A stretch of 38,467 nucleotides of DNA from Gammaproteobacteria bacterium (GTDB taxonomy: Bacteria > Pseudomonadota > Gammaproteobacteria > GCA-002705445 > GCA-002716945), in NCBI GenBank assembly GCA_002698665.1, contig NZZP01000003.1, forward strand, positions 1-38,467, read 5' to 3'. Below are positions 20,567 to 24,424 of this stretch, piece after piece. The position numbers and the translations under genes are program-made. The notes under the pieces were generated by a model, which saw nothing but the letters and a program-made list of their open reading frames with translations, was not told the DNA's origin and made no database searches. Every line of letters begins with the position of its first letter. Within the stretch, counting starts at the first letter, position 1.

Positions 20567-21457
20567 ATGGATATCAAAAAAGCTCATAAAGAAATTGGAT
20601 TTATCGGTCTTGGTATTATGGGAAAACCCATGGCTGATAATCTAGTAAAGGCTGGCTTTAATGTTAGTTTTTATGCAAGGCGTAAATTAATAATTGAAGA
20701 TATGATCGCAAAAGGAAGTAAATTTCTACCTAGCGTTTCTGATGTTTCTAAATCATGTAAAATAATTTTTTTAAATTTACCTGAAAGTAAAGATGTTAAG
20801 AATGTTGTGCTTGGAAGAAATGGTTTATATAAAGGGCTTCAGAAAAATACGATTATAATTGATATGAGCACAATATGTCCAAACGTAACTCAAGAGTTAT
20901 CTAATACCCTACTGAAAAAAAATTGTTACTTGATAGATGCACCAGTTTCAGGTGGTGAGATAGGTGCAATAAAAGGTACTTTGTCCATAATGGTAGGAGG
21001 TGACAGACAAAAGTTTCTAAAAATTAAAAGCTTACTAAATACTTTAGGAAAAGATATTACTTACATAGGTAAGTCAGGGTCTGGACAAATAGCTAAAGCA
21101 TGTAATCAAATTTTAGTTGCAGGGACCATGTCGGCTGTTAGTGAAATACTAATATTAGCTGACAAATTAAAATGTGATAAAACTCTTATTAAGAAGGCTT
21201 TAATGGGGGGTTTTGCTAAGAGTAAAATATTAGAAGTACATGGCGAAAGAATGATTAAAAATAATTACAAGCCAGGATTCACCTCTAAACTACACCTTAA
21301 AGATATGATTATAGCTCGTAATTTAGCTCGAAAAGTTGGATTAAAACTAATGGGTGCAAATAGATCGCTTCAGCTTTTAAAACAAGTTAAGAAATCAAAA
21401 CTATCAAATAAAGATTCTTCGATTATACATAAAATGATTATAAAGAAATCAAAATAA
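20567..21457 (+). CDS. 3-hydroxyisobutyrate dehydrogenase/tartronate semialdehyde reductase family oxidoreductase (track start 20513; Met at 20567 preferred)
   Basis: 'IGFIGLGIMGKPMADNLVKAGF', 'IDAPVSGGEIGAIKGTLSIMVGG', 'GSGQIAKACNQILV' are HIBADH family motifs. Confidence 0.92.
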   Translation: MDIKKAHKEIGFIGLGIMGKPMADNLVKAGFNVSFYARRKLIIEDMIAKGSKFLPSVSDVSKSCKIIFLNLPESKDVKNVVLGRNGLYKGLQKNTIIIDMSTICPNVTQELSNTLLKKNCYLIDAPVSGGEIGAIKGTLSIMVGGDRQKFLKIKSLLNTLGKDITYIGKSGSGQIAKACNQILVAGTMSAVSEILILADKLKCDKTLIKKALMGGFAKSKILEVHGERMIKNNYKPGFTSKLHLKDMIIARNLARKVGLKLMGANRSLQLLKQVKKSKLSNKDSSIIHKMIIKKSK

Positions 21458-21496: not shown

Positions 21497-21898
21497 ATGT
21501 TAGGAAAAAATTTTGAAAATCTACTAAAAAGCAATGGTATCACGCCTACAAAGCAAAGGTTGGAAATAGCTGATTTAATATTTGTTAAGAATCAACATTT
21601 CAACGCAAGTGATTTGATAGATAAAGTCAAAAATGCTGGACTGCCAATATCACAAGCTACAATATACAATACCTTGTGTTTGTTTGAACAAAAAGGTTTG
21701 CTCAAAACTATTAATCTAAATAATGATCACAAATTTTTTGATACAAATTTAGAGCCACATCATCACATGTATAATACTAGCAACAACACACTTACTGATA
21801 TAAGTAATGAAAAAATAAGTTTTTCTAAACTACCTGATATTCCAAAGAACCTTTCAGTTGAACAAACTGAAGTATTAATCAAAGTCAAAAATAAGTAA
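21497..21898 (+). CDS. Fur-superfamily regulator, Irr-like (HHH motif, no CxxC zinc site)
   Basis: 'GITPTKQRLEIADLIF...HFNASDLIDKV...PISQATIYNTLCLFEQKGLL' Fur winged helix; 'EPHHHMY' followed by no CxxC; a single Cys in the whole protein. Confidence 0.85.
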   Translation: MLGKNFENLLKSNGITPTKQRLEIADLIFVKNQHFNASDLIDKVKNAGLPISQATIYNTLCLFEQKGLLKTINLNNDHKFFDTNLEPHHHMYNTSNNTLTDISNEKISFSKLPDIPKNLSVEQTEVLIKVKNK

Positions 21899-21900
21899 TA

Positions 21901-22482
21901 TTAGCTGAAATCATCAGACAACGTCTCAATTACTTTTAGAGACAACTCAGTATGCTTATCATACTGACTATGATCAGTGCCTATTGAGACATTATTTGAA
22001 TCTTTGAATTTACTTACACTAATATCGTCAAGTTCAAATCGAAGAAAATGAACCGCAGAAGTTTTTTCGTCTCTGCTCCTTTCAAGATCCTCATCTGCTA
22101 TAGCAAATATCCGTTTACCATTGTCAATTGATAACCATATATTATTTTCTATATCATGTAGTTTGTTTAGCATAGTTTTACGCTCCGCTACATTTGGGTA
22201 CATAATAAGCATCGTAGCTTTTAAGTTACTGCCATCAGGAATTAATGCACTGTATGCTGATATTTCCTCATCTATTTCTTTGTCATTAAAAATCTTCTCT
22301 ATTCGCAACATTTCCTGAATTTGATACTTAATTGTCTTAAAATCTTCAAATAATAATAATATGTTTTCTCCTATTTTTACTGATCTATGTTCCTTGTGTT
22401 TAATAATTTGTAATTTAATATCATCTCTTTTTTTATCATATTCTTCTAGAGAGAGTAGTTCATCTTTTATTAACTTATTCAT
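21901..22482 (-). CDS. DUF3501 family protein
   Basis: 'LLSLEEYDKKRDDIKLQIIKHKEHRSVKIGENILLLFEDFKTIKYQIQEMLRIEKI' and 'VHFLRFELDD' match DUF3501 as I recall it; adjacent to the Fe-S protein and rubrerythrin. Confidence 0.8.
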   Translation of the reverse strand: MNKLIKDELLSLEEYDKKRDDIKLQIIKHKEHRSVKIGENILLLFEDFKTIKYQIQEMLRIEKIFNDKEIDEEISAYSALIPDGSNLKATMLIMYPNVAERKTMLNKLHDIENNIWLSIDNGKRIFAIADEDLERSRDEKTSAVHFLRFELDDISVSKFKDSNNVSIGTDHSQYDKHTELSLKVIETLSDDFS

Positions 22483-22494
22483 ATATATACCTCC

Positions 22495-23796
22495 TTATAG
22501 CCCATATGCACGTTTAATAAGTGAAATTGGGTGAGTTGCGTTTATTTTTTTGCCAATTGCATTCACTACATGATGAGCCGCTAATGTGCAGTCACTTGTA
22601 ACAAAATCAGACTCTGTTTTCTCAAATTCTCGTACGATAGGCTTTGCAATTTTTATAGCTATCTCATGAGTTTCTTGCTTTACACCATATGTACCGTCAT
22701 GACCGGAGCATCGCTCAATAGAATTAATGGTAGTATTAGGTATCAGCTCAAGTATTTTCTTTGTCAGGGGCCCCATATTCTGGACTCTCTGATGGCATGC
22801 TACTTGGTAAAAAACACTCCCTAAATGATTTTTAAAATCAGTATCCAATAACCCTTTGTTGTGCAATAAAGCAAGATATTCAAATGGATCAAAAATAGAT
22901 TTAGAAATTAGAGATACATCTTTATTTTCTGGAAATAGTAGTGGCAATTCTTGTTTAAACATAAGTATACATGAGGGAACAGGTGCTATGATTTTGTACC
23001 CATCATTTACATATTTCTTAAATATATTGATATTAGACTGCATCATTTTTTCAACTTGAAGCAGATCCCCTAATTCTAATTTAGGCATGCCACAACAATT
23101 ATCTTCTTGTATGACTTTTACGTGAACCTGGTTATGTTCTAAAACAGAAACCAAATCATCTACAACATTTGGCTCATTGTAATTATGGTAACAAGTTGTA
23201 TAAATAGCTACTTTTTGATTAGTTTCAAATGTACTATTCATATTTAAATACTTTGATTTAGCTGTCACACTGGCAAATTTTGGCAATGAAGCATTTCGAT
23301 GGATATGAAGTACTTTCTCAAGAATTAATCTAAAAATCTTTGTATTATTAAAAAAGTTCACAATAGGTGCGATAATTTTCTTAGACGCAAATCTTCCTAA
23401 GTAATCTGTAGATGAAATGATTTTATTTCTAATTGATGCACCTTTTTTATGGTGATTGATAGCTTTAGCACGTAGCATTAAGTGTGGAAAATCTATTTCC
23501 CATTCATGTGGAGGAATGTATGGGCATTTGGTTAGGAAACATAAATCGCATAAGTAGCAATGATCCACTACATCTTGAAATTGCTCATACCGCACACCAT
23601 CAACTTCAAATGTATCTGATTCATCAATCAAATCAAACAGAGTTGGAAATGAGTTACACAAACTGACACATCTTCTACATCCATGGCAGGCGTCAGCAAC
23701 TCTTCTCAATTCTTTCTCAAAAAGCTCTTCGTTAAGATAATCTTTATTCTTCCAATCGACGGCATATCGCGTCGGAGCTTGAAGGCCACCTTCCAT
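22495..23796 (-). CDS. GlpC/HdrD-like (Fe-S)-binding oxidoreductase with two N-terminal 4Fe-4S motifs and CCG-type domains
   Basis: 'CHGCRRCVSLCNSFP', 'CYLCDLCFLTKCPYIPPHEW', 'DNCCGMPKLELGD', 'RCSGHDGTYG'. Confidence 0.9.
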   Translation of the reverse strand: MEGGLQAPTRYAVDWKNKDYLNEELFEKELRRVADACHGCRRCVSLCNSFPTLFDLIDESDTFEVDGVRYEQFQDVVDHCYLCDLCFLTKCPYIPPHEWEIDFPHLMLRAKAINHHKKGASIRNKIISSTDYLGRFASKKIIAPIVNFFNNTKIFRLILEKVLHIHRNASLPKFASVTAKSKYLNMNSTFETNQKVAIYTTCYHNYNEPNVVDDLVSVLEHNQVHVKVIQEDNCCGMPKLELGDLLQVEKMMQSNINIFKKYVNDGYKIIAPVPSCILMFKQELPLLFPENKDVSLISKSIFDPFEYLALLHNKGLLDTDFKNHLGSVFYQVACHQRVQNMGPLTKKILELIPNTTINSIERCSGHDGTYGVKQETHEIAIKIAKPIVREFEKTESDFVTSDCTLAAHHVVNAIGKKINATHPISLIKRAYGL

Positions 23797-23818: not shown

Positions 23819-23844
23819 AACCTCTTATTTAGAAATAAGAGGTT
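23819..23844 (-). terminator. Strong hairpin AACCTCTTATTT-AG-AAATAAGAGGTT with T-rich tail on the minus strand, between rubrerythrin and Fe-S gene
   Basis: Perfect 12-bp arms (23819-23830 / 23833-23844); minus-strand sequence after the stem is TTATTTTTA. Confidence 0.75.
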
Positions 23845-23855
23845 ATAATTTTAGA

Positions 23856-24275
23856 TTAGGAAATAGCTTCCAGTGCTTTTGTGAATCTATTTGCATGAGA
23901 CCTTTCTGCTTTGGCAAGTGTTTCAAACCAATCCGCAATCTCATCAAAACCTTCATCGCGAGCTGTTTTAGCCATGCCAGGATACATATCAGTGTATTCA
24001 TGGGTCTCACCAGCTATCGCAGCTTTAAGATTCATCTCGCTATTACCTATAGGTTCTCCAGTCGCAGGGTCACCGCATTCTTTTTCTAGGTATTCTAAGT
24101 GGCCATGGGCATGACCAGTTTCACCTTCAGCAGTTGATCTAAAAACAGTTGCAACATCGTTTTGTCCTTCAACATCTGCTTTAGCAGCAAAATATAGGTA
24201 TCTTCTGTTGGCTTGTGACTCTCCTGCAAAAGCATCTTTTAGATTTTTTTCAGTTTCTGAACCTTTTAAACTCAT
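23856..24275 (-). CDS. Rubrerythrin, diiron domain only (no C-terminal rubredoxin domain)
   Basis: '[27 protein letters not shown]', '[18 protein letters not shown]', '[26 protein letters not shown]', '[15 protein letters not shown]'; ends with no CxxC pair. Confidence 0.96.
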
Positions 24276-24332
24276 TTTCTTTCTCCTTATGTGTTCATAA
24301 ACAAATTATATAATCATTGAATGTATGACTAT

Positions 24333-24347
24333 TTAGAATCATTCTAA
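24333..24347. promoter_or_regulatory. ICE/Irr-box-like (also PerR-box-like) palindrome TTAGAAT-C-ATTCTAA
   Basis: Perfect 7-1-7 palindrome. 24332-24348 matches TTTAGAA-N3-TTCTAAA at 13 of 14 defined positions. Overlaps the -10 of the rubrerythrin promoter. Confidence 0.7.
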
Positions 24348-24369
24348 TTTCATATATAATGTTTGTCAA
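24341..24369 (-). promoter_or_regulatory. Putative sigma-70-type promoter of rubrerythrin: TTGACA-N17-TAGAAT
   Basis: Minus strand TTGACA (24369-24364), 17-nt spacer, TAGAAT (24346-24341); AAGGAG SD at 24288-24283. Confidence 0.75.
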
Positions 24370-24392: not shown

Positions 24393-24398
24393 TATAAC

Positions 24399-24411
24399 AA
24401 TGATTATCATT
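24399..24411. promoter_or_regulatory. Fur-box-like palindrome AATGAT-T-ATCATT
   Basis: Perfect 6-1-6 palindrome matching the core of the classical Fur box; lies at the predicted start of pyrD transcription, 13 nt before its ATG. Confidence 0.6.
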
Positions 24412-24424
24412 CTTAATAGCAGCT

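Follow-up and report, generated by a model that had tools for sequence, protein, structure and literature searches.

A predicted Irr-type operator on the -10 element of a rubrerythrin promoter, conserved in a family of marine Gammaproteobacteria

Regulators of the Irr type have been described as restricted to the Alphaproteobacteria, either entirely or with few exceptions (PMC7762939, PMC8638967). Irr binds its operator, the ICE, in the absence of haem and acts as a repressor or as an activator according to the position of the ICE (PMC7762939), while its known targets include mbfA, encoding a rubrerythrin-like ferritin, the 5' end of which lies inside the Irr box in R. sphaeroides (PMC3413700). 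Noted features shared by Irr proteins are an Asp, common to PerR and Irr, an Asn, and the loss of the CxxC motif (PMC8638967); an N-terminal haem regulatory motif is not universal among them (PMC7762939). ‘Aerobic-type’ rubrerythrins are known from a cluster of three genes, RBR-RFO-DUF3501 (PMC5114695); neither Irr nor promoters or regulators came up in a search of its text.

The same three-gene set is present in the window, i.e., the whole 38,467-nucleotide stretch of gammaproteobacterial DNA analyzed here, together with a gene for an Irr-like regulator (Table 1). The preliminary description of this DNA had placed a near-consensus sigma-70 promoter on the minus strand ahead of rbr, with its -10 element inside a perfect palindrome and an Irr-like regulator gene about 2.4 kb away, and each of these observations holds. 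The TTGACA-N17-TAGAAT arrangement, located in the upstream region of rbr (minus strand, ...TTGACAAACATTATATATGAAATTAGAATGATTCTAAATAG...), agrees with the consensus at 11 of 12 positions and is the foremost of 23 promoter-like sites between positions 21300 and 24500; the palindrome that encloses TAGAAT is free of mismatches; and the distance in question runs from the rbr start at 24275 to the end of the regulator gene at 21898. As judged from its sequence, this is the promoter that drives rbr, the Fe-S oxidoreductase gene (RFO) and DUF3501, and the hairpin between the first two genes suggests partial termination, by which rbr mRNA would exceed RFO-DUF3501 mRNA.

Table 1. Features of the rubrerythrin locus, in coordinates of the window
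Feature	Position	Strand	Description
irr-like regulator gene	21497-21898	plus	133 aa; convergent with the rbr operon; proposed repressor
DUF3501 protein	21901-22482	minus	220.7 bits
RFO	22495-23796	minus	GlpC-like Fe-S oxidoreductase with CCG domains; name from PMC5114695
Terminator-like hairpin	23819-23844	minus	Strong, U-tailed; lies between rbr and RFO
rbr	23856-24275	minus	Rubrerythrin, 139 aa, without rubredoxin domain, ‘aerobic-type’ (PMC5114695)
ICE/Irr-box-like operator	24333-24347	.	TTAGAATgATTCTAA = TTAGAATCATTCTAA; perfect 7-1-7 palindrome, TTAGAAT-C-ATTCTAA, 0 mismatches
-10 element (TAGAAT)	24341-24346	minus	Wholly within the operator; register with -35 conserved
-35 element (TTGACA)	24364-24369	minus	17 bp from TAGAAT
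Fur-box-like element	24396-24414	minus	AAGAATGATAATCATTGTT; 15/19; located 67 bp upstream of the operator and 10 bp ahead of the start codon of pyrD

The likeness of the palindrome to the Irr box was also borne out, as the 17-mer TTTAGAATCATTCTAAT matches TTTAGAA-N3-TTCTAAA at 13 of its 14 defined positions, and at all 14 in most relatives. A further proposed likeness, to the PerR box TTATAAT-N-ATTATAA, stands only in part: the 7-1-7 layout and the five PerR-type ligands of the regulator agree with it, while the sequence departs from the PerR box at two positions, where G/C replaces T/A. G/C is kept at both positions in all rbr promoters of the family, and TTATAAT half-sites were encountered only among scattered one-mismatch matches.

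A genome-wide scan for the motif, as the preliminary description had proposed, gave different results at the two levels considered. In the single genome there was no enrichment: the window contains 18 loose matches (up to three mismatches) against 15.7 expected, and two-mismatch matches across the window genome (29) are not commoner than in a reversed control (36). The exact operator occurs once in this 1.19 Mb genome, with 0.08-0.10 copies expected, and such a count is weak proof since it rests on one copy. When 25 genomes of the family are taken together, on the other hand, there are 40 exact copies against approximately two expected, the latter being a first-order Markov estimate that uses the composition of the window. 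The significance of the operator thus rests on its conservation in the family and not on enrichment in the window genome, and the comparison with shuffled-sequence frequencies put forward as a refutation is misleading when applied to a single genome and needs to be applied to the family.

This conservation is centred on the operator itself. TTAGAAT[C/G]ATTCTAA lies on the rbr -10 element in 21 of the 21 family genomes that yielded an rbr promoter, with diverging flanks, and the TTGACA-to-TAGAAT spacing is 17 bp in 20 of these promoters and 16 bp in the remaining one. Among non-redundant rbr promoters, the information content per column is 1.93 bits in the operator, 1.66 in the -35 element and 1.09 in the spacer, compared to 0.85 bits upstream of the operator and 0.71 downstream of it.

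All 40 exact copies are situated in promoters of five genes, i.e., rbr (21), ftsH (11), a redoxin-family peroxiredoxin gene (6, in genus g6), katG (1) and iscR (1). The operator overlaps the -10 element in the same register at rbr, katG, all of the peroxiredoxin promoters and most of the ftsH promoters, those of genus g2 lacking a -35 element at that fixed distance from the operator. ftsH is a predicted target that was not found in a literature search; eight one-mismatch promoters add to its 11 exact ones, giving 19 family genomes. The window genome's own ftsH site (L003, G000:C44:14846) has one mismatch, so that this genome carries one exact site and one one-mismatch site at a defence-type promoter. 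Six one- or two-mismatch sites of this genome were inspected, of which only the one at ftsH recurs in relatives; a site immediately 5' of uvrB (TTAGAATATTTCTAA; L002, G000:C3:51692) was not seen to be conserved, and the others lie within or beside unrelated genes. One-mismatch matches inside coding sequence in relatives (e.g., L269, L270, L274) were attributed to chance or coding conservation. At the ftsH locus of the window genome and its relatives, a thiol peroxidase gene lies directly upstream of rlmE, and one peroxiredoxin gene (L260) is preceded by two ICE-like sites 20 bp apart (G020:C32:9449 and 9469).

In genome G017 (L065/L249; G017:C4:43243), the interval from pyrD to irr holds a catalase-peroxidase gene, katG, in place of the rbr operon, which this genome lacks, and the operator TTTAGAATGATTCTAAA is retained on the -10 element of the katG promoter; the encoded protein shares 76% identity with the KatG whose gene adjoins irr in SAR11. 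This exchange of rbr for katG under one operator represents a natural experiment that supports a role in peroxide defence. The irr gene was found in 23 of the 25 family genomes, and in the two without it (G003 and G011) no DUF3501 was found either, indicating that the whole locus has been lost or is missing from the assembly. In a 69%-complete genome (L053, G002:C5), irr contains an in-frame stop or frameshift and DUF3501 an in-frame TAA, with the operator intact.

The regulator scored 71.5 bits against Pfam FUR (cut-off 23.1), in keeping with a Fur-superfamily fold, and its best NCBIfam families are IrrA (114.7 bits) and Irr (114.3), well ahead of PerRA (78) and Fur (31). The curated IrrA and Irr equivalog cut-offs of 150 and 170 bits, respectively, were not reached, for which reason the protein is not filed here as a curated Irr equivalog. 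Phylogenetic analysis against Irr, PerR and Fur, which the preliminary description had suggested, placed it together with rhizobial Irr in a clade of 38 rows, supported at 99/99 (97/95 with an earlier sequence set) and separate from Fur and from B. subtilis PerR; the tree included the latter (a sequence identical to 2fe3), Fur/Mur and other Fur-family proteins. Based on its sequence we therefore regard the regulator as an Irr-clade protein. Inside the clade, SAR11 and a small number of other gammaproteobacterial Irr-like proteins form a group with it (91/95). Transfer of the gammaproteobacterial irr from SAR11 was considered, as the tree joins both (85/86), yet both are AT-rich and were flagged for odd composition, which makes the pairing uncertain, and a SAR11 origin is not claimed. 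The HxH haem-binding motif (H88-H89-H90) is invariant in the family, and the protein has an Asn in its DNA helix and an Asp in the PerR-type site, the ligands of which are His34, Asp82, His88, His90 and Asp101. It has no structural-zinc CxxC, and its N-terminal region contains no Cys such as a Bradyrhizobium-type haem regulatory motif would provide.

The association between operator and regulator extends outside the family. Among marine alphaproteobacteria, irr is followed by TTTAGAAT(C/T)ATTCTAA and then katG in SAR11 and at two Rhodobiaceae-like loci (L079, L080), and a further Rhodobiaceae locus (L083) has the arrangement irr - TTTAGAATTATTCTAAA - rbr-RFO-DUF3501. A phylum sample of 398 genomes contained 29 with DUF3501, 27 of which had a readable rbr promoter with the window left out. 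When an ICE was counted at up to two mismatches and within 350 bp of rbr, it was present in 7 of 12 Irr-bearing genomes, the other five having no clear ICE at rbr, and in none of 15 Irr-less ones (Fisher P = 0.0009, an optimistic value since the sampled genomes are related to one another). One of the seven is the gammaproteobacterium G230 (65% GC), in which the best ICE match of the genome is the rbr site; ICE scans of genomes G066, G311 and G073 revealed no enrichment over the reversed control.

Support for the Irr/ICE reading first put forward for this site comes from the 21 family rbr promoters, from the alphaproteobacterial loci in which the operator adjoins irr, from its co-occurrence with Irr and from the clade into which the regulator falls. 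Judging from this evidence, it is highly probable that the palindrome is the operator of the Irr-clade regulator, which would repress rbr-RFO-DUF3501 by covering the -10 element. A regulator dimer would bind the 7-1-7 palindrome, cover the hexamer and block RNA polymerase, keeping the operon off; inactivation of the regulator by haem or iron sufficiency and/or peroxide would then lift repression, with expression of the peroxide-reducing operon. Control by this regulator probably extends to ftsH and, in relatives, to katG, a peroxiredoxin gene and iscR, where it would act through identical sites, most of them overlapping the -10 element.

The most substantial alternative retains both regulator and operator but takes the protein for a PerR equivalent, i.e., a repressor that binds metal and loses its activity directly through oxidation by H2O2, rather than a haem sensor. 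All five regulatory ligands of B. subtilis PerR (H37, D85, H91, H93 and D104) are retained, including an Asp in place of the Glu of Fur, the predicted regulon consists mostly of peroxide-defence genes (rbr, katG and peroxiredoxin), and the nearest solved fold and sequence is that of Leptospira PerRA (5nl9), which together with Fur provides the top PDB matches of the structure model (pLDDT 84). The five ligands do not discriminate between the two types of protein, however, since they are conserved in every Irr compared, that of Bradyrhizobium included, and since the Asp is common to both (PMC8638967); moreover, the clade of the regulator is that of Irr and not that of B. subtilis PerR. We consider this alternative possible, though distinctly less probable than an Irr-type repressor, and at issue is whether such an Irr-clade regulator, its PerR-type site being intact, senses haem, peroxide or both.

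It is improbable that the regulator activates rather than represses. Irr can do either according to ICE position (PMC7762939), and in the alphaproteobacterial irr loci the ICE abuts the -35 element, just upstream of it and not on the -10, so that the regulatory sign could differ there; the site in the family, in contrast, covers the -10 element, a position expected to exclude polymerase.

The rbr promoter is predicted to contain a second regulatory site, a Fur-box-like element whose score was reached by none of 200 shuffles. Its distance to the operator is 64-67 bp in most relatives; G018 is an exception, and in some g6 genomes the element is found only with a different spacing. Its predicted centre, at about -71 relative to the predicted rbr start, may suit iron-dependent activation by Fur, in which case transcription from this promoter would require sufficient iron as well as an inactive Irr-like repressor. 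Since the window genome also encodes a canonical Fur (G000:C6, 144.5 bits) and Fur-family proteins can share targets, this Fur, instead of the Irr-like protein, might be thought to bind the palindrome. Such an arrangement is very doubtful: the same promoter has this separate Fur-box-like sequence 67 bp upstream, the presence of an ICE at rbr goes with that of Irr in the phylum sample, and the ICE adjoins irr in alphaproteobacteria. Finally, a chance palindrome conserved merely as a -10 element, to which the AT-rich genome and the unenriched loose motif in window and genome might point, is strongly disfavoured and the least credible reading of all, because a -10 element accounts for 6 bp and not for 15 conserved bp at the information content given above, and leaves unexplained the confinement of all 40 exact sites to five promoters, mostly of stress-defence genes.

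A predicted Irr-type repressor acting on the -10 element represents a conserved putative Irr/ICE circuit in small-genome marine Gammaproteobacteria, belonging to a little-known ocean family. More tentatively, an Irr lineage outside the Alphaproteobacteria might have come to be devoted to peroxide defence, as a repressor with a minimal regulon made up of rbr or katG, ftsH and peroxiredoxin, an operator merged with the -10 element, a swappable effector enzyme and, through the Fur box near -71, a gate at rbr that would require both iron sufficiency and peroxide.

Compared to B. subtilis PerR and its box, the system has the same 7-1-7 layout, the same five regulatory metal ligands and peroxide-defence targets, but differs in the G/C that replaces the T/A of the PerR box and in a regulator that is without structural Zn cysteines and belongs to the Irr clade, outside which PerR falls. 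The SAR11 and Rhodobiaceae loci (L079-L098, L083) share with it the regulator clade, the operator and interchangeable peroxide enzymes beside irr, while their genes are co-directional, as opposed to convergent in the window, and their ICE lies just upstream of the -35 element. With the alphaproteobacterial Irr/ICE systems of Bradyrhizobium, Rhizobium and Rhodobacter it has in common the operator consensus and a regulator of the Irr clade with an HxH motif and no zinc CxxC; it differs from them in that the regulator falls below the NCBIfam Irr cut-offs and outside the rhizobial Irr group of the tree. On the sequence evidence, the locus is accordingly a variation on the known Irr/ICE theme, distinguished by a gammaproteobacterial host, a reduced, very small and defence-centred predicted target set, and an operator that incorporates the -10 element.
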